Origin: a virus | Length of the DNA stretch: 23,907 bases | Reading direction: 5' to 3' (one strand) | IMG/VR virus record: IMGVR_UViG_3300047318_000108 | Coordinates: 1 to 23,907 of that record | Notes under the pieces: generated by a model | Databases searched by the model: none | What the model was told of the DNA's origin: nothing | What the model saw: only the letters and a program-made list of their open reading frames with translations | Shown here: one piece after another, positions 3,593-23,755 of the stretch | Position numbering within the stretch: the stretch's first letter is position 1 | Layout of the letters: the number at the start of each line of letters is the position of its first letter | Made by a program: the position numbers and the translations under genes

Positions 3593-3786
3593 GATTTTAT
3601 AGAGATGGAATAGAGCGGGGTGTTCGTATTCAGAACGATCACTTCGCTGTAGGTGTGAGCTATGCTCCACACAAGAGACTCGGTAAATTTATAGAGCACA
3701 AAGTCATCTACGGCTTTTATGCTGAGCTCTTAGGTGTAGGACTCTTAGTAGCCGTACACCCTAATGACGGGACTTCCGCACAATGA
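3589..3786 (+). CDS. Small unknown protein
   Basis: 65 residues from a GTG at 3589 (read as M: MRFYRDGIERGVRIQNDHFA...), overlapping the preceding TGA, with AAGGA upstream. The sequence is strand-rich with a hydrophobic middle (YGFYAELLGVGLLVAV). Its last 26 bases overlap the end of the opposite-strand gene at 3761-4462, so the two gene groups converge here. No terminator hairpin is evident at this junction. Function unknown. Confidence 0.55.
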   Translation: MRFYRDGIERGVRIQNDHFAVGVSYAPHKRLGKFIEHKVIYGFYAELLGVGLLVAVHPNDGTSAQ

Positions 3787-4462
3787 ACTCTTTAGAACCA
3801 AGCTTATTAGTTATCCAAATGATGTCCTTGGTGTTGATGTTTTCTTCAAGTACCTGTACCTTTGCGAGCTTCTGAGCATTGAGCTCTTTAGCTTCATCGT
3901 TGTCGCTCTTGAGCCAGTGCTCTATGTCGTCTGATACTGTTAGATGATTGTTACCCATATCCCAAATGTTGAAGTACTTAGGGTCCTCAGTGTATCTTGA
4001 GTACTTCTTTTTGTTGAACGCAACGAAGCCGGTCTTGTTGTATTGGTCAACAGCTTTCTTTATCTCTGTGTCTGTAAAGACTTTATAGATGAAATGACCG
4101 CCTTTACCATTAGGTCCTCTTAGACCAGCGAACCCTTCAGCTACCTTCTTATCGTCTGTCCAGCTCTCAAGGAACTTCTTGTCTACGTAGTCCTGACCGA
4201 GCATGCTATGACCGAGTCTAGCGAGACCACGATACAGCTTTATCCTTGGACCTAGCTCTTTCCTAATAGGAGCAAACACCAGCTCAATCTCTTGAGCTAC
4301 GTGATCGTTAGCCTTGACATGTTGTTCAAGCGCTCCACCTGTCCAGTTAACAGTTTCCCAATGATCTATTGCCTGTTTAGCATCATCAGATAGCTGATCG
4401 TAAGCCTTCTTTGAGAGGTTGATGTACTGTTTCTCTATTAGGAACGCTGAAAATCTAATCAT
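3761..4462 (-). CDS. ADP-ribosyltransferase-like protein with capsid-targeting-like N-terminus
   Basis: 233 residues. What I see: IKLYRGLARLG (Arg78), the typical first strand of R-S-E ADP-ribosyltransferases; ESWTDDKKVAEGFAG (Ser100-Trp-Thr102), the S-x-S/T motif followed by the A..FA helix; and a last strand SKEFIVRK (Glu225). The usual E-x-E is here S-x-E, and the protein stops soon afterwards, so activity is less certain than for the gene at 16421. The N-terminus MIRFSAFLIE|K resembles the T4 capsid-targeting sequence MKTYQEFIAE|A, including an L-x-E prohead-protease-type site. T4 Alt is a head-packaged ADP-ribosyltransferase injected with the DNA; I infer a similar role. It lies downstream of a second protein with such a leader, separated by three bases. 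A TAAATA core about 30 bases upstream could be its own late promoter. Confidence 0.65.
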   Translation of the reverse strand: MIRFSAFLIEKQYINLSKKAYDQLSDDAKQAIDHWETVNWTGGALEQHVKANDHVAQEIELVFAPIRKELGPRIKLYRGLARLGHSMLGQDYVDKKFLESWTDDKKVAEGFAGLRGPNGKGGHFIYKVFTDTEIKKAVDQYNKTGFVAFNKKKYSRYTEDPKYFNIWDMGNNHLTVSDDIEHWLKSDNDEAKELNAQKLAKVQVLEENINTKDIIWITNKLGSKEFIVRKSRH

Positions 4463-15812: not shown

Positions 15813-16421
15813 TTATGTCCTAATCTTTGATAGTGAGTCTGTCCAGACCTTTGTTTGTGTAGCCTTTTGGAAGCGAGCGAGTGGTAAAAAGAGTACGTAA
15901 TCCCATTCAGTGATGTCTACCTCAATGAAGTTAGACTGTACATGTGAGTAGAGGTAACGCTTAATGCAAGGCTTGAAGTATTTCATCTTAGCAGTATTCT
16001 TAAGGATTTGGTAAGAAATCTGCAGCTTTGAAGTCTTATCATACTTATCATTGTTGAGTGTGTCGTACAGCGCATCCATCAACCTGGCTCTATGCATAGG
16101 TGGAAGGTAGTGAAGGTTGATACCAAGGAAACCGTCTTTGTAGAACTCAAGAGGAAACACAGCGGGAAACTTATCCCAATAAGGAAGAGTGGCCTTGTGC
16201 TTAGCGTCATAGAAATAAAGCATCAGCTTACCAGGTGTAGGAACTGTAACGTAATTCTTCTGTGCTTTCTTAGAGTTAGCAAGACGATTCACATTGACGT
16301 TACGAGACACAGCCATCATAGCTTTATCTCGTAGGAAGTCCTTTATCTGATCATCACCAAACTTGGCTGATGTAGTGTTCTGTGCATCTGCTAATGCTTT
16401 TTGAAAGAGAATTGATGCCAT
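15813..16421 (-). CDS. Conserved T4-like virion protein of unknown role
   Basis: 202 residues. The central stretch PGKLMLYFYDAKHKATLPYW, DKFPAVFPLEFYKDGFLGIN, LHYLPPMHRARLMDAL matches, from memory, a conserved protein found near tail and baseplate genes in several T4-like phages of marine and soil bacteria; I know no experimentally assigned function. The N-terminus is helical (FQKALADAQNTTSAKF) and the C-terminus forms strands (FIEVDITEWDYVLFLPLARF). One base separates it from gp48, and it overlaps the stop of the ADP-ribosyltransferase-like gene (TAATG), so it belongs to the late tail operon. Confidence 0.75.
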   Translation of the reverse strand: MASILFQKALADAQNTTSAKFGDDQIKDFLRDKAMMAVSRNVNVNRLANSKKAQKNYVTVPTPGKLMLYFYDAKHKATLPYWDKFPAVFPLEFYKDGFLGINLHYLPPMHRARLMDALYDTLNNDKYDKTSKLQISYQILKNTAKMKYFKPCIKRYLYSHVQSNFIEVDITEWDYVLFLPLARFQKATQTKVWTDSLSKIRT

Positions 16422-17122
16422 TACTTAAGGAGACCATAAATGAGTGCTATATCCGTTGGTAAGAGCACCTTTTCTACCTTGTAAGTTGAACTCTCTGAGA
16501 ACCTAATGACCTCAGATTCGTCGTTACCAAGGTTATGACTTCCTAGATAGTTTGTGAAGTCAGTGTTAAAGATGAGCTCATTTTTGTGCTTAGAAGGATC
16601 TATCTGATAGACGACTGGAATCTCATCCTCTTCTCTGAGCTTATCCCATCTTTTGACTACAGCTTTCATATCGATATTCCAGCCTTCACCCTCTTCGTAA
16701 GCAAAAATCAATGCAATTGTAACGTCTTCAGTCCATGACTGAACGTGGGCTTTAGATTGATATGTTACATTTGTAGCCTCAACGAAATCTGTACCTTTAT
16801 ATCCAAAAGGAGAAGCTTTAAAGCTGAGCTTTTTGATTATGTTCCAATCCATCTTAGAACCACGATATAGAGTTCTTCCACTTGGTACTAGAATATCTTT
16901 GTACTTATCTTTGCACTTAGCAAGTTCTTCAAGCTTTGCTAGAAGGTCTTTTTTTTCTTTACGCATACTGGCACCGCGAATGAACATCTCGATAGTCTGG
17001 AACATAGATTTCTCGGTTACAGTGTCAGGTTCACCCTTGTTCCTGAAGGTGCCAAAAAGGTACTTGCCGAACTCTTGGTCGCAATTAGTTGAACCCTCAC
17101 AGATGAACTCTTTAAATCTCAT
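16421..17122 (-). CDS. ADP-ribosyltransferase with capsid-targeting-like N-terminus
   Basis: 233 residues from the ATG at 17120-17122 that overlaps the gp4 stop (ATGA); the longer frame to 17149 runs inside gp4 and is rejected. The R-S-E triad is complete: LYRG with Arg87; QSWTEDVTIALIFA with Ser129-Trp-Thr131; DESEVIRF with Glu202-x-Glu204, the E-x-E that in this family marks arginine-type (or broader) mono-ADP-ribosylation using NAD+. A strand VVYQID (170-175) lies between. The N-terminus MRFKEFICE|G is nearly the T4 capsid-targeting sequence MKTYQEFIAE|A, including an I-x-E|G protease site. I infer a head-packaged, injected effector like T4 Alt, though it is much smaller than Alt (682 residues). 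It shares pattern but little identity with the gene at 3761. Confidence 0.8.
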   Translation of the reverse strand: MRFKEFICEGSTNCDQEFGKYLFGTFRNKGEPDTVTEKSMFQTIEMFIRGASMRKEKKDLLAKLEELAKCKDKYKDILVPSGRTLYRGSKMDWNIIKKLSFKASPFGYKGTDFVEATNVTYQSKAHVQSWTEDVTIALIFAYEEGEGWNIDMKAVVKRWDKLREEDEIPVVYQIDPSKHKNELIFNTDFTNYLGSHNLGNDESEVIRFSESSTYKVEKVLLPTDIALIYGLLK

Positions 17123-17571
17123 AACGCGCCTATATCCTTCTCGGTCCACACTTGAAATTCCCAGCCCTTAGCAGCGGCCAATTTCTGAGCAGATGCCCAC
17201 TTAGCTTGATTGACTCCATAGGTTATAACCTCTGTGATGTATCTCTTCTTATGCATTCCCTTTTTGAGGACAGGAGGTACACATTGCTTAGAAGGTTTAA
17301 CTTCTACGATAAGTACACGAATGTTTCCGTCTTTGGTCTTGCACTTAATGTAGAAATCTATGAAGTATCTGTGATATTTATTATCTTTGGGTGAGAGATA
17401 CGAAACTACAACACCTTCAGAACCCCATTCGAGAACGTCTGGGTGTAGGTCTAACTTGCTCATAACACTAAGTTCCCATCCTGATCGATATACAGGTGGG
17501 TTCTTTGTAATGTTACCTTTGTACTTTTCTGGGTGTTTGGGTCTGAAGACCCCCTGTTTGTATTTTGCCAT
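17119..17571 (-). CDS. 4: Head completion protein gp4 (nuclease fold)
   Basis: 150 residues, the same length as T4 gp4 (also called gp50/65). Matching segments in order: PKHPEKYKGN near residue 12, YRSGWELSVMSKLDLHPDVL (28-47), EWGSEGVVVSYLSPKDNKYH, RYFIDFYIK, LIVEVKPSKQ, TYGVNQAKWASAQ. Asp72 and E90-V-K92 form a PD-(D/E)xK nuclease site. In T4 this protein finishes DNA-filled heads so that tails can join. I use ATG 17569-17571; the 17589 start would add six residues with no better ribosome site. It overlaps the ADP-ribosyltransferase gene and lies just downstream of a late-type promoter candidate at 17602-17609. Confidence 0.92.
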   Translation of the reverse strand: MAKYKQGVFRPKHPEKYKGNITKNPPVYRSGWELSVMSKLDLHPDVLEWGSEGVVVSYLSPKDNKYHRYFIDFYIKCKTKDGNIRVLIVEVKPSKQCVPPVLKKGMHKKRYITEVITYGVNQAKWASAQKLAAAKGWEFQVWTEKDIGAL

Positions 17572-17578
17572 ATTACCA

Positions 17579-17586
17579 CTAAATAT
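17579..17586 (+). promoter_or_regulatory. Late-type promoter candidate, CTAAATAT
   Basis: Plus-strand CTAAATAT, 32 bases before the TTG start of the tail-tube-fold gene. It is the same octamer as at 9464-9471 (minus strand) and forms an inverted pair with 17602-17609, so transcription can leave this 47-base gap in both directions. Confidence 0.6.
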
Positions 17587-17601
17587 CAATGAATCTCAAG
17601 A

Positions 17602-17618: not shown

Positions 17619-18326
17619 TTGTCAAACATAAATGATATTCTAGCAACGATCAATAAGTTGGGAGGACTCGCCAAACCTAATAGGTTTGCTGTACAAATTA
17701 CTGCACCTACAACTATGGCTTCAGCTGCGAGAGACCTAGTTTATTTATGCGATACTGTCAATCTTCCTGACATACAGTTCCAGACAGAAGACATCAAGAA
17801 CAAAGGCTACGGTCTATCTGAAAAGAGACCAGTTGGTGTAACTTTTGGTGACGTTACAGCAACATTCTTCATTGACAACAATGGTGTCTCACTTCGTTTC
17901 TTCCAGACTTGGGTATCAAGAGTATTCTCATTTAACACTTCATTGAGTGACAAGAAGATCAATGGTCTGTCTGCAGAGTCTTACAATTATCCTGCTGACT
18001 ACTCTGGTACAGTTCAGATTGCTTTCATGAATGACTCTAATCAAAACATTATCGTCTACACCCTTGAAGATGCTTATCCTACCCATATCGGCGGTGTGAC
18101 TCTAGGATGGGAGCAGAACGATCAACACGCTAAGCTGCCCGTTACGTTCGCTTATAAGACATATACGACCTATCAAGGTACAGTGTACGGTGAGTCTGAC
18201 TCCTATATCACAGACAACCCATCTGTGCAGACAACTACTGACTACAGAAACATGTCTCTTCTCAACACACTAAATAATCCAAATATCAATGACGTTGTCG
18301 CGCGGAATGCATTTACTTTAATATAA
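17619..18326 (+). CDS. Tail-tube-fold protein (gp19/gp54 family)
   Basis: 235 residues from a TTG start at 17619, fixed by AGGAAG five bases upstream. The order of elements is that of T4-type tube proteins: AKPNRFAVQITAP, YLCDTVNLPDIQFQTEDI, SEKRPVGVTFGDVTATFFID, then YTLEDAYPTHIGGVTLGWEQ and a final strand LPVTFAYKTYTTY (compare the LP.....K.PVG, WPTNVG.L.LDW and .VTLAL elements of gp19). It is longer than gp19 (163) and shorter than gp54 (320). It may be the tube initiator gp54 or the tube subunit itself; location among baseplate genes favours the former. It is followed after nine bases by the gp26-family gene. Confidence 0.75.
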   Translation: MSNINDILATINKLGGLAKPNRFAVQITAPTTMASAARDLVYLCDTVNLPDIQFQTEDIKNKGYGLSEKRPVGVTFGDVTATFFIDNNGVSLRFFQTWVSRVFSFNTSLSDKKINGLSAESYNYPADYSGTVQIAFMNDSNQNIIVYTLEDAYPTHIGGVTLGWEQNDQHAKLPVTFAYKTYTTYQGTVYGESDSYITDNPSVQTTTDYRNMSLLNTLNNPNINDVVARNAFTLI

Positions 18327-18335
18327 GGATTTAAA

Positions 18336-19064
18336 ATGGCTTTACCTATTGTTAAGCAACCAGTTTACGAAATTTTCCTACATTCACTTAAGAAGACTAC
18401 TACATTCAGACCTTACACTACTGGTGAAGAGAAGATCCTAATGATGGTATCTAACTCTGACGACCCTAAATTCGTTGTCAACAACATCCGTAAGGTTCTA
18501 GGTGCTTGTCTTACTGACCCATCTATTGACATCAACACCATTGCTTCTTATGACATCGAAAATCTTCTAATCAAAATTAGAGCTAAGTCAAGTGGTGAAA
18601 CACTAAAGCTTACCTACAAAGATGAGGATGACAAGACAAAGTATCCACTTGAGATCGACCTAGACTCTCTTGACGTTATTTTCAATGAAGAGCATGTCTA
18701 CAAGATCGAGATCACCGATAAGATCGGCATCATCATGAAGGACCTTAACTTCGATCGTATGATGTACTTCCAAGAGAAGGTTCTCAGAGAAAAGAAGAAG
18801 AAAGATATGAAGGAACTTCAGGTAGAAGTTTCATTCGAGACCATGCTTGATTGCATCGAGTCACTCTACGACGAGAACGAAGTCTACAAAGTCGGTGAGA
18901 ACACAACTCGTGAAGAGGTTACTGAGTTCATTAACGCTCAGGTTGGCATCTCACCACGTCTTTATAAGTTCGTTGAGACTATGCCTGCAGTGAAGTACCA
19001 AACAACTCTACCAAATGGTAAGTTCGTTGAGATAAAGGACATCAAAAGTTTTTTAGCGTCTTAA
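18336..19064 (+). CDS. 26: gp26-family baseplate hub assembly protein (zero-frame product)
   Basis: 242 residues; AAGGA precedes the ATG. The N-terminal domain matches the T4 gp26 family (T4_baseplate): VYEIFLHSLKKTTTFRPYTT, GEEKILMMV, VVNNIRKVLGACL, IENLLIKIRAKSSGE, YPLEIDLDSLDV, then KIEITDKIGIIMKDLNFDRM. In T4, gp26 is needed for baseplate hub assembly but is not clearly part of the finished particle, so it acts as a catalyst or chaperone. The frame ends DIKSFLAS-stop. Four codons before the stop is T_TTT_TTA (19049-19055), and a second frame follows in the -1 register, see the separate entries. Directly following a tail-tube-fold gene, the layout recalls the G/GT tail chaperones of lambda. 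Confidence 0.88.
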   Translation: MALPIVKQPVYEIFLHSLKKTTTFRPYTTGEEKILMMVSNSDDPKFVVNNIRKVLGACLTDPSIDINTIASYDIENLLIKIRAKSSGETLKLTYKDEDDKTKYPLEIDLDSLDVIFNEEHVYKIEITDKIGIIMKDLNFDRMMYFQEKVLREKKKKDMKELQVEVSFETMLDCIESLYDENEVYKVGENTTREEVTEFINAQVGISPRLYKFVETMPAVKYQTTLPNGKFVEIKDIKSFLAS

Positions 19065-19088
19065 TAGATACTGACTTCGCTCAGTATT
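19036..19088 (+). promoter_or_regulatory. Candidate programmed -1 frameshift signal
   Basis: Three elements lie in order. First, a Shine-Dalgarno-like AGGA (19036-19039). Nine bases later comes the classical slippery heptamer T_TTT_TTA in the gp26 reading frame (19049-19055). Then, after an 11-12-base spacer holding the zero-frame stop, comes a hairpin ATACTGA (19068-19074) / TCAGTAT (19081-19087), plus a G-U pair, with a six-base loop. E. coli dnaX uses the same order of elements. The hairpin spacer is a little longer than usual. Confidence 0.7.
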
Positions 19089-19234
19089 ACAAGGTTCTAT
19101 TCCTCTTAAAGGAACATCATCATTTCTCTGTAGATGAGTATGAGAACCTTGTTCCTTATGAGAGGGATATCTTGATGTCCTTGATTATGGAAGAGATTGA
19201 GGCTAAGAAGTTAGCTCAACAACAAAAACATTAA
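19055..19234 (+). CDS. C-terminal extension of the gp26-family protein made by -1 frameshift
   Basis: After slipping at 19049-19055 the ribosome would read AGC at 19055 and continue for 59 residues (SVLIDTDFAQYYKVLFLLKE...VPYERDILMSLIMEEIEAKK...QQQKH) to TAA 19232-19234, giving a 299-residue fusion. The extension is clearly protein-like: hydrophobic and charged residues alternate as in helices, and the codon style fits the neighbours. It has no ATG, GTG or TTG before its last 20 or so residues, so it can hardly be translated on its own. The open frame begins upstream inside gp26 (19031). The short helical tail with a Y-E-R-D core parallels the T part of GT-type tail chaperones in function, by position; sequence homology is not claimed. 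It ends four bases inside the convergent gene at 19231. Confidence 0.7.
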   Translation, partial: SVLIDTDFAQYYKVLFLLKEHHHFSVDEYENLVPYERDILMSLIMEEIEAKKLAQQQKH

Positions 19235-20618: not shown

Positions 20619-21632
20619 TTAAATCTCCAATAGTGTGGAGATGACGTCGAAATGATCTTCGAAAAGTTGAGACCTCATGTTCTTTACCTGAGCGATAGGG
20701 AACCAACGAGCATCCATAGCATCATCAGAACCTTTAACCTTTGGTAGAGCACCGACATCATCTAGTCTGAAATGTGTTGCATGTGTAATAATGCGACCAC
20801 GATTTGAACGATAAGGATCATCAAATAGCTTACGCTGCTTAATAGAACCACGTAGAACTTTCTGTGGAACTTTAATCTTAGTTTCTTCATCAAGTTCACG
20901 AAGAGTAGCGTCAAGAGTAGTCTCATCTGGATTGATGAAGCCACCTGGTAGTGCCCACTTCTTATAACCGTATTCCTTACCACGTTGGATAAGAAGTAAG
21001 TGTCCTGCCTGAACGATACAGGAGTCTACAGTCATGTGAGGGCCTTTACCCCATTTACCCATATACTGTTCTTCGTACTCATAGTCAGATGTAAGTTCGT
21101 TGACGACTTTGTCCATGTGTTCAATGAACTTATCAGCACCGTATCCTGGCATAATATTTTCATTGACTTCGTATTTCTGGTAGTAGAAGTTACGAATTTC
21201 AGTAGCTGAGATAACGTCCTTCGTTACAGAAATTGCAATAGAGTCCCATGTTGGGAAGAGGTTCAAGTAAAAAGAAGACGAATCTTTCTTCATACCTGCT
21301 AGAGCAACTGAATATGGACCTGGTATAAATCCTTTTGAGTGGATGGAGTGAAATACTGCACCTTGTACGTCTGCGATCCACTTGTCTAGGTTATACGGGT
21401 AGTCAGGCACGAACGCGAATCGAATGCGCTTGAATGTCTCCTTAGGAAGACTCGCTCTGATGATGTCTACACGTTCCTGTGCACTGAGTGGGTTACGTGT
21501 ATCTCGAGCTTTTTCAAAAGAACCAATCACCATGATCAGTTCTTTTGCTTTTTCGAGGGCTCCATCAACGATCTGCTTGTGACCTAGATGAAATGGCTGG
21601 AAACGACCGATAAAGACTGCGAAATCAAACAT
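20619..21632 (-). CDS. natV: Bifunctional NMN adenylyltransferase / Nudix hydrolase
   Basis: 337 residues. N-terminal domain (~1-180): nucleotidyltransferase motif GRFQPFHLGH with H15-x-G-H18 and the second signature ISATEIR at 141-147, as in NadM-type NMN adenylyltransferases (NMN + ATP gives NAD+ and pyrophosphate). C-terminal domain (~200-337): Nudix box from Gly231 with Glu237, Arg245-Glu246 and Glu249-Glu250; the final Gly of the consensus is Lys252. Nudix partners of this type hydrolyse ADP-ribose and related compounds. The same fusion is known from cyanobacteria and from vibriophage KVP40, where it is paired with NadV. The start overlaps the nadV stop (TAATG). Together the two genes form a complete route from nicotinamide to NAD+. 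Confidence 0.93.
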   Translation of the reverse strand: MFDFAVFIGRFQPFHLGHKQIVDGALEKAKELIMVIGSFEKARDTRNPLSAQERVDIIRASLPKETFKRIRFAFVPDYPYNLDKWIADVQGAVFHSIHSKGFIPGPYSVALAGMKKDSSSFYLNLFPTWDSIAISVTKDVISATEIRNFYYQKYEVNENIMPGYGADKFIEHMDKVVNELTSDYEYEEQYMGKWGKGPHMTVDSCIVQAGHLLLIQRGKEYGYKKWALPGGFINPDETTLDATLRELDEETKIKVPQKVLRGSIKQRKLFDDPYRSNRGRIITHATHFRLDDVGALPKVKGSDDAMDARWFPIAQVKNMRSQLFEDHFDVISTLLEI

Positions 21633-23035
21633 TACTTCACCTTCGCATTTTCACGGACAGTGTCAAAGTCCATATCTAGAAGTAGTTTACCATTATCCCA
21701 TACTGTGTTAAGCAGACGAGTCTCAGAAAATACCGCTTCATCTTCACGCATTGTAACAATCTTTCTACGTGGAGTCATCACTGTTGTGAGAACGCCGGCC
21801 TTGCTCTTCTTGAATGGCTCATCGATTGGATCTTTGTAGACATCGACCCATTCGTCATCGATGAGAACTGCATTTGTCTTCATTGCGAACTTAAGAGTGT
21901 CACGATCGACCTTTTGAAGAAGAGCTCCACCCATACCGAATACAAAATTCTCGGCTGAGTAACCCATGTTGACTACAACGTGGTGTAGAATATTCTGAAT
22001 TGATGTGATGTTGATACCATCACCCCATAGGATACGTACACCATTTAGAACTTGGTATTCCTTACTGTTGACAGTGAAACCAAAGGTTCCAGCGAGAGAA
22101 GGAAGGATTTTTGATAGGACATCAATTGGATTACCTGAGTCAGGACGAATGACTAGAGTAGCTCCATTCATCTTGTCTTTAAGAGCTGGCCACAGGTTGT
22201 CGACGGCATTGTAGATATTATATGAGTCGGAAACGCAAGAAACAATAGAACCAGGCTTAGCGAACTTATCCACCATGTTAGTATACGCATCAAATTCATT
22301 TTCTCTGCCCCATGCTGTGATTGTGCTGTGCTCTGATGCTGGAACTGAGTAGCCAACAGGACCATCAGCGTTGTAGTATTCTTCAGCAGCAAACAATGCT
22401 TCAACTGTGTCTGTACCCATGAAGTTTACAAGGTGAGCCATGCCACCAAGCTGAGCACTCTCTGAAGATGATACACCACGTGCACCAAAATCATGTAGCT
22501 TGAATGGAAGGTTGGCAGCAGTCTCGTCTGAAGACTTATCGAGATACTTCTTAATGATCTTCTTAACTTCGCGCGATAGAGTCGCTACAGTTGTTGGGTA
22601 CCATACTGCACGAAGGATTGCCGTCTCTACGAATGAAGCGAGCCATGCGAAGCGATCATCTGTTGCGCGGACCTGAACTAGTGCTACGTGAGTAGCAACA
22701 GGTGTACCTTCAGGGATAGCTTGAATTCGAATTGGTAGAATACCGTTAAACTCATTGACGATAATATACCACTGATCGGCGTTGAATGGAAGACCGTGAG
22801 CCGTAATCATCTTACTAGCGCGTTCGATATCATTTGACGTGATGGGAGTATTGAGGTACTCTTTTATCCATGCTTGAAGACCAAAGAATACAACTTCTGA
22901 GTCAGCAGGAAGACCAGACTTAAGGTCAACACCGCGACTCTCGATGTATGAATTGTTATTTTTTACTGATGCTGGAAATAGTGCATAGTGGCTGTACTTA
23001 TATGAATCAGCCGCAATTATTAAAGATACTTTCAT
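21632..23035 (-). CDS. nadV: Nicotinamide phosphoribosyltransferase NadV
   Basis: 467 residues, the usual length. Family motifs: ADSYKYSHY near residue 9, HDFGARGVSS (181-190) with SSESAQLGGMAHLVNFMGTD after it, VPASEHSTITAWG with the active-site histidine His236, VIRPDSGNP (295-303) for phosphoribose binding, and WGDGINI further on. It joins nicotinamide with PRPP to give NMN, the rate-limiting salvage step, which its partner downstream turns into NAD+. The ribosome site is AAGGAG. It heads the minus-strand operon down to 19231. A TATAAATA lies 70 bases upstream, so late expression is possible, although I expect it to be needed early. Confidence 0.95.
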   Translation of the reverse strand: MKVSLIIAADSYKYSHYALFPASVKNNNSYIESRGVDLKSGLPADSEVVFFGLQAWIKEYLNTPITSNDIERASKMITAHGLPFNADQWYIIVNEFNGILPIRIQAIPEGTPVATHVALVQVRATDDRFAWLASFVETAILRAVWYPTTVATLSREVKKIIKKYLDKSSDETAANLPFKLHDFGARGVSSSESAQLGGMAHLVNFMGTDTVEALFAAEEYYNADGPVGYSVPASEHSTITAWGRENEFDAYTNMVDKFAKPGSIVSCVSDSYNIYNAVDNLWPALKDKMNGATLVIRPDSGNPIDVLSKILPSLAGTFGFTVNSKEYQVLNGVRILWGDGINITSIQNILHHVVVNMGYSAENFVFGMGGALLQKVDRDTLKFAMKTNAVLIDDEWVDVYKDPIDEPFKKSKAGVLTTVMTPRRKIVTMREDEAVFSETRLLNTVWDNGKLLLDMDFDTVRENAKVK

Positions 23036-23176: not shown

Positions 23177-23755
23177 ATGAATATTTATACACCATACGTC
23201 TACTTTATCACATTTACAAATCCAAGTACACCAGAAAAGTTGTATTATATTGGATCTGAATATTCAGAAATCTCAAAAGTAGCTCACCCATCTAATCTGT
23301 TCACAATTTATGATACTTCTTCTGTAAGAGTTAAAGAACTTATAGAAGAGTTTGGAAAAGAATGTTTTAAAATTTCCATTCGAAAAACCTTTAAAACTGG
23401 TAACGAAGCAACAGATTATGAGACTAAACTTCTCACGAAAATAGATGCTAAACGAAGACCAGATTTCATCAACGAATCAAATGGAACTCGTGGCAGTTAT
23501 GGTCAAATGTCTGAAAGAGCTAAAACAAAAATGGTTGAAACTCGTTCCATAACTTATTTAGAGAGGTTTGGGACAGAGCATCCAATGAAAAATCCTGAAA
23601 TTAATCTAAAATCTGTTCTTAAACATATTAAGAGAGTTTCGATCAATGGAACAGAATACCCATCTTGTTTAGAAGCTGCAAAAGCGTTGAATGTAACTAA
23701 AGGTGCGATTTCGCAGTGGGTTAAGAAACAACGAAATCAAGCTTACTTTGTTTGA
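23177..23755 (+). CDS. GIY-YIG homing endonuclease-like protein
   Basis: 192 residues; AGGAG lies upstream of the ATG. N-terminal GIY-YIG nuclease domain: YVYFITF (7-13), YYIG (23-26), Arg51 in SSVRVKELIEEFG and Glu82 in EATDYETKLL as likely catalytic residues. The middle has a NUMOD-like, nuclease-associated stretch (MSERAKTKMVET, ERFGTEHPMKNPEIN). The end is a helix-turn-helix (YPSCLEAAKALNVTKGAISQ) typical of intron-encoded or free-standing phage endonucleases such as the Seg proteins. Such genes copy themselves into related phages by cutting a site nearby. The gene is visibly more AT-rich than its neighbours, a sign of recent arrival. Its last 13 bases overlap the opposite gene. Confidence 0.85.
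   Translation: MNIYTPYVYFITFTNPSTPEKLYYIGSEYSEISKVAHPSNLFTIYDTSSVRVKELIEEFGKECFKISIRKTFKTGNEATDYETKLLTKIDAKRRPDFINESNGTRGSYGQMSERAKTKMVETRSITYLERFGTEHPMKNPEINLKSVLKHIKRVSINGTEYPSCLEAAKALNVTKGAISQWVKKQRNQAYFV

Follow-up and report, generated by a model that had tools for sequence, protein, structure and literature searches.

The locus analyzed here raises the question of whether a phage gene of the gp26 family encodes one protein or two, since a first-pass annotation of its sequence proposed a programmed -1 frameshift at the gene end. In phage lambda, the tail assembly chaperones have been described as coating the tape measure protein and recruiting tube subunits (PMC5009743), and this 2016 review still listed T4 as the exception to G-T frameshifting. 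Earlier, a 2010 review had termed one of T4 gp26/gp51 essential with function unknown, and reported that baseplate assembly requires gp51 and that the particle lacks it (PMC3004832), which fits a chaperone of this type. Later on, according to papers citing their work, Vladimirov, Gautam and Davidson (2022) identified gp26 and gp51, the baseplate hub assembly chaperones of T4, as tail assembly chaperones. Citing the same study, PMC10885494 states that in some T4-like phages two tail chaperone genes, a short one and a long (fused) one, take the place of frameshifting. PMC12846349 credits it with poly-T slippery sequences in T4-like TAC-N genes, so that the first-pass statement that no frameshifted gp26 was known has to be withdrawn.

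The window, i.e., the whole stretch of 23,907 nucleotides of viral DNA that was analyzed, contains the features collected in Table 1. The gp26-family open reading frame ends in AGT TTT TTA GCG TCT TAA, where two sense codons (GCG TCT) separate the heptamer from the TAA stop codon at 19062-19064, and not four as initially annotated. A -1 slip at this point would give ...KSFL|SVLIDTDFAQYY..., with 59 residues encoded at 19055-19231, a stop codon at 19232-19234 and a joined gp26-gp51 product of about 299 amino acids. It was claimed that this second frame has no usable start codon, and indeed neither ATG nor GTG nor TTG occurs in the -1 frame of the window between the preceding -1 stop and the end of the first 13 codons past the heptamer. 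The gene was also correctly described as following a tail-tube-fold gene: the tail tube gene stands directly 5' of it, just as the gene for the major tail protein precedes lambda G/GT.

Table 1. Features of the gp26-gp51 locus and their positions in the window
Feature	Position	Strand	Basis
Tail tube protein gene	17619..18326	+	phrog_45 tail tube, E 1.5e-40; Pfam Phage_TTP_2, E 9e-12
Short form, gp26-family (TAC-N, lambda gpG-like), 242 aa plus stop	18336..19064	+	PF12322, phrog_150
AGGA, Shine-Dalgarno-like putative stimulator, 9 nt 5' of heptamer	19036..19039	+	Read from sequence
Slippery heptamer T TTT TTA, zero-frame phase	19049..19055	+	Sequence; 85/85 loci
-1 frame, T4 gp51 C-terminal domain (lambda T-like), 59 codons plus stop	19055..19234	+	phrog_634
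Hairpin, putative stimulator, 11-12 nt past heptamer	19067..19088	+	RNA fold; z -1.55

At the protein level, the zero-frame product belongs to Pfam PF12322, T4_baseplate (E 2.4e-33; 116 bits against a gathering cut-off of 24.5; profile positions 4-218 of 219), and to phrog_150 (E 1.2e-36). The 59 residues of the -1 frame, which had been taken for an anonymous extension, matched phrog_634, baseplate hub assembly catalyst, in a profile search (E 1.7e-15, profile 60-115 of 121) and are identified as the C-terminal domain of T4 gp51. T4 gp51 itself consists of a full PF12322 domain (1-201) followed by this same C-terminal tail, and T4 gp26 of PF12322 only. A profile of the joined product in the window family aligns with a T4-type gp51 over residues 21-285, spanning the junction, with an E-value of 3.5e-16 that comes from a one-template comparison. 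Because T4 gp51 is built in this way and the joined product aligns with it, gp26 is considered here as the short tail assembly chaperone and gp26-gp51 as the long one, equivalent to lambda gpG/gpGT. The AlphaFold2 model of gp26 is confident (pLDDT 91.8), and the model of a T4-type gp51 from IMG/VR (pLDDT 84.5) predicts an order of elements much like that of gp26 plus three extra terminal helices. In a fold search of the PDB, only 2OB9, the tail assembly chaperone of HK97, reached a notable probability (0.54; TM 0.56 by target length), a weak match whose E-value of 2.4 is not significant, and searching PDB sequences with either the gp26 profile or T4 gp51 returned nothing relevant. The suspicion that T4-type gp26 is a G-type chaperone is supported by the nested forms, the upstream tail tube gene, the homology to T4 gp51 and the weak HK97 fold match.

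The distribution of this arrangement was addressed in related phages. The joined query matches 497 phage records. In 488 of these the match covers 80% or more of the query, and among the matches listed it falls into two collinear pieces; cyanophages make up the majority, and phages of Sinorhizobium, Methylophilales, Pelagibacter and others are also represented. The comparison relied on 85 loci, namely the window and 84 relatives, drawn from two close and 80 more distant loci in IMG/VR and three in GenBank, with L061 left out because its contig ends there. On its own, TTTTTTA is not above chance in the window (2 occurrences vs 3.8 expected); its significance is comparative, since all 85 loci hold the heptamer in phase. 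It reads TTTTTTA, TTTTTTC or TTTTTTT and lies 0-27 nt 5' of the gp26 stop, and in every locus (85/85) the gp51 piece is in the -1 frame and open across that stop. Comparison of the loci also revealed a synonymous preference for TTT: all 85 loci use TTT as their first Phe codon, compared with 562/825 (68%) elsewhere in these genes (p 6e-14), and the base 5' of it is T in all of them. Past the heptamer, the distribution of substitutions over the codon positions (0.27/0.13/0.46) has the codon structure of the -1 frame, which shows coding selection in that frame. A Shine-Dalgarno-like motif is found 8-10 nt upstream of the heptamer in 64 of the 85 loci, versus a background of 2.1% elsewhere in the same phase, and its Glu codon is biased towards GAG (81% vs 32%, p 1e-13). 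These p-values treat the loci as independent and ignore shared ancestry, which overstates their significance; the direction is uniform. Taken from sequence, the proposed programmed -1 frameshift is strongly supported, given that heptamer, -1 register and upstream Shine-Dalgarno-like motif are conserved and synonymous codon use is biased, and in this respect the first-pass claim was borne out.

The resemblance to the dnaX signal that had been pointed out stands for the upstream AGGA and in part for the downstream hairpin, which is real but weak alone. Its stem, ATACTGA/TCAGTAT at 19068-19087, reaches 8 bp counting an outer G-U pair, and the segment 19056-19105 folds at -9.0 kcal/mol, a modest value (z -1.55) equalled in stability by 12 of 200 shuffles. 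Across the 85 loci, the mean z of RNA folding is about -1.5 just after the heptamer and near 0 elsewhere. A single conserved hairpin was ruled out, as the 50 aligned TTTTTTC loci share no consensus structure. Two main classes of heptamer emerge, TTTTTTC (53 loci) and TTTTTTT (29 loci). The upstream motif is kept in 50 of the 53 TTTTTTC loci, often with a hairpin, and in 12 of the 29 TTTTTTT loci; most loci with GAT-TTT-TTT are devoid of it.

It could be argued that gp51 is a separate small gene, translated from its own start just past the gp26 stop by stop-restart or coupling. The piece is frequently annotated as a small gene of its own in the relatives, many GenBank records giving it as a separate CDS, and the early -1 frame has an ATG in 51/85 loci, a feature that the first-pass annotation had regarded as contrary to its claim; in Pseudomonas phage Cygsa01 the gp26 stop and gp51 start overlap as TAATG. 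Against this, the early -1 frame has no start codon in 20 of the 85 loci, the window among them, and a separate gene leaves unexplained both the invariant in-phase heptamer and a register that is always -1 and open upstream of the stop. Moreover, the Shine-Dalgarno-like motif is spaced to the heptamer; in P-SSM2 it lies about 24 nt from the annotated ATG, which is too far for ordinary initiation there, and in T4 gp51 the domain is fused to a gp26-type domain. A separate gene is therefore very unlikely as the general explanation, and some separate gp51 could also be made where the early -1 frame has an ATG. Slippage of the transcribing polymerase on the T run, rather than of the ribosome, would be another way to the long form, and the seven T's in the heptamer of 29/85 loci would suit it. 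Six T's are short for efficient transcriptional slippage, and the window and the 53 TTTTTTC loci have six; the phase of the codons, the upstream motif with its 8-10 nt spacing and the structure past the heptamer all favor the ribosome, and we consider this route very unlikely. Homopolymer runs are prone to errors, and the T run is one, but a sequencing or assembly indel splitting an ordinary gene, the other finding held contrary at first, is ruled out: 85 loci, the genomes of phages P-SSM2, S-CAM1 and phiN3 among them, all change register in the same way at this very position.

Ribosomal -1 slippage on T TTT TTA remains the preferred reading, and it is very probable, judging from sequence conservation, that one gene with one start gives rise to two nested tail assembly chaperones. 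Most ribosomes would terminate at the zero-frame stop to release the 242-residue short form, similar to T4 gp26 and lambda gpG. A presumed fraction would slip back one base on the heptamer, with the AGGA before it and probably the hairpin after it assisting, and would read on into the gp51 domain to produce the long form (TAC-NC), similar to T4 gp51 and lambda gpGT. If lambda is a guide, the tape measure protein would be coated by many copies of the short form and few of the long one, with the gp51 domain recruiting tail tube subunits. No large tape-measure-like gene lies directly downstream in the window or in its two closest relatives. Large downstream open reading frames in relatives have weak tape-measure matches only and were not named as such.

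Among known systems, the locus has in common with T4 gp26/gp51 the PF12322 domain, the C-terminal domain of the long form and the collinearity of the joined product; T4 uses two separate divergent genes without a frameshift, whereas here a single frameshifted gene is present. Lambda gpG/gpGT and HK97 gp13-type genes resemble it in a -1 frameshift close to where the first frame ends, in a short product nested within a long one, in the position after the tail tube gene and in the weak fold match to HK97 2OB9. It differs from these systems in that no sequence relative was found among solved structures, that in the window no tape measure gene adjoins it, and that the heptamer is poly-T instead of the G GGA AAG of lambda. 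Like Escherichia coli dnaX, the locus combines a Shine-Dalgarno-like motif about 10 nt upstream, a heptamer and a downstream hairpin, but the heptamer differs, the hairpin is weaker and lineage-specific, and the shift yields a longer product, not the shorter one of dnaX. A further known system is the Vandenendeviridae/Andersonviridae locus of PMC12846349, where a poly-T (GTTTTT) -1 site also lies at the end of a tail chaperone gene; it concerns other phage families and was likewise reported from sequence conservation only.

Eight further named phages from GenBank were inspected in addition to the 85 loci. The -1 register is kept in seven of them, six with a T TTT TTN heptamer and gp51 in the -1 frame: Cronobacter S13, Sinorhizobium phiM9, Pelagibacter Mosig, Methylophilales Melnitz, Aeromonas PX29 and Synechococcus S-CREM2. 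In Cygsa01 (L088 3736-3740) the -1 register comes without the heptamer, and in RB43 the long form is encoded as a single gene. It can be proposed, with about equal weight for and against, that the frameshifted gp26-gp51 gene is ancestral in T4-like phages, that the split genes of T4 derive from duplication plus in-place joining, and that the more slippery TTTTTTT class needs less help; gene duplication is the presumed origin of the T4 arrangement. A T4-type gp51 copy in L104 (1501-2246) has a reading frame that looks broken in the contig.

Other genes of the window deserve a brief mention. A TnsA-like endonuclease N-terminal domain protein is encoded at 17119-17589 (-; PF08722, E 1e-18), and similar open reading frames stand near the tail tube gene in two relatives (L002 and L003). 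In the same two relatives, the counterparts of 16421-17149 and 3761-4462 (-) start with a FKQFLEEGRDAPLYHGT-type stretch and occur in several tandem copies; these proteins are ADP-ribosyltransferase-like by motif only, and a family search with the two window copies gave no match. At 20619-23035 (-), a nicotinamide/nicotinate phosphoribosyltransferase adjoins a bifunctional NMN adenylyltransferase/Nudix protein, a pair for NAD+ salvage that possibly acts as a counter-defence against NAD+ depletion. A GIY-YIG/NUMOD1 homing endonuclease-like protein is weakly matched at 23177-23755 (+).

Altogether, the frameshift is a well-supported, real phenomenon of an ordinary kind, and since its central identification has already been published, the present analysis is a confirmation and extension; what may be new relative to the prior literature are the statistics of the signal and the division into two heptamer classes. 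The T4 hub assembly chaperones correspond to two products of one frameshifted gene in most non-enteric relatives sampled. The annotation of several hundred phage records, in which gp51 is listed separately or omitted, would need correcting, and the frameshift signal is testable, with a natural series of variants at hand.
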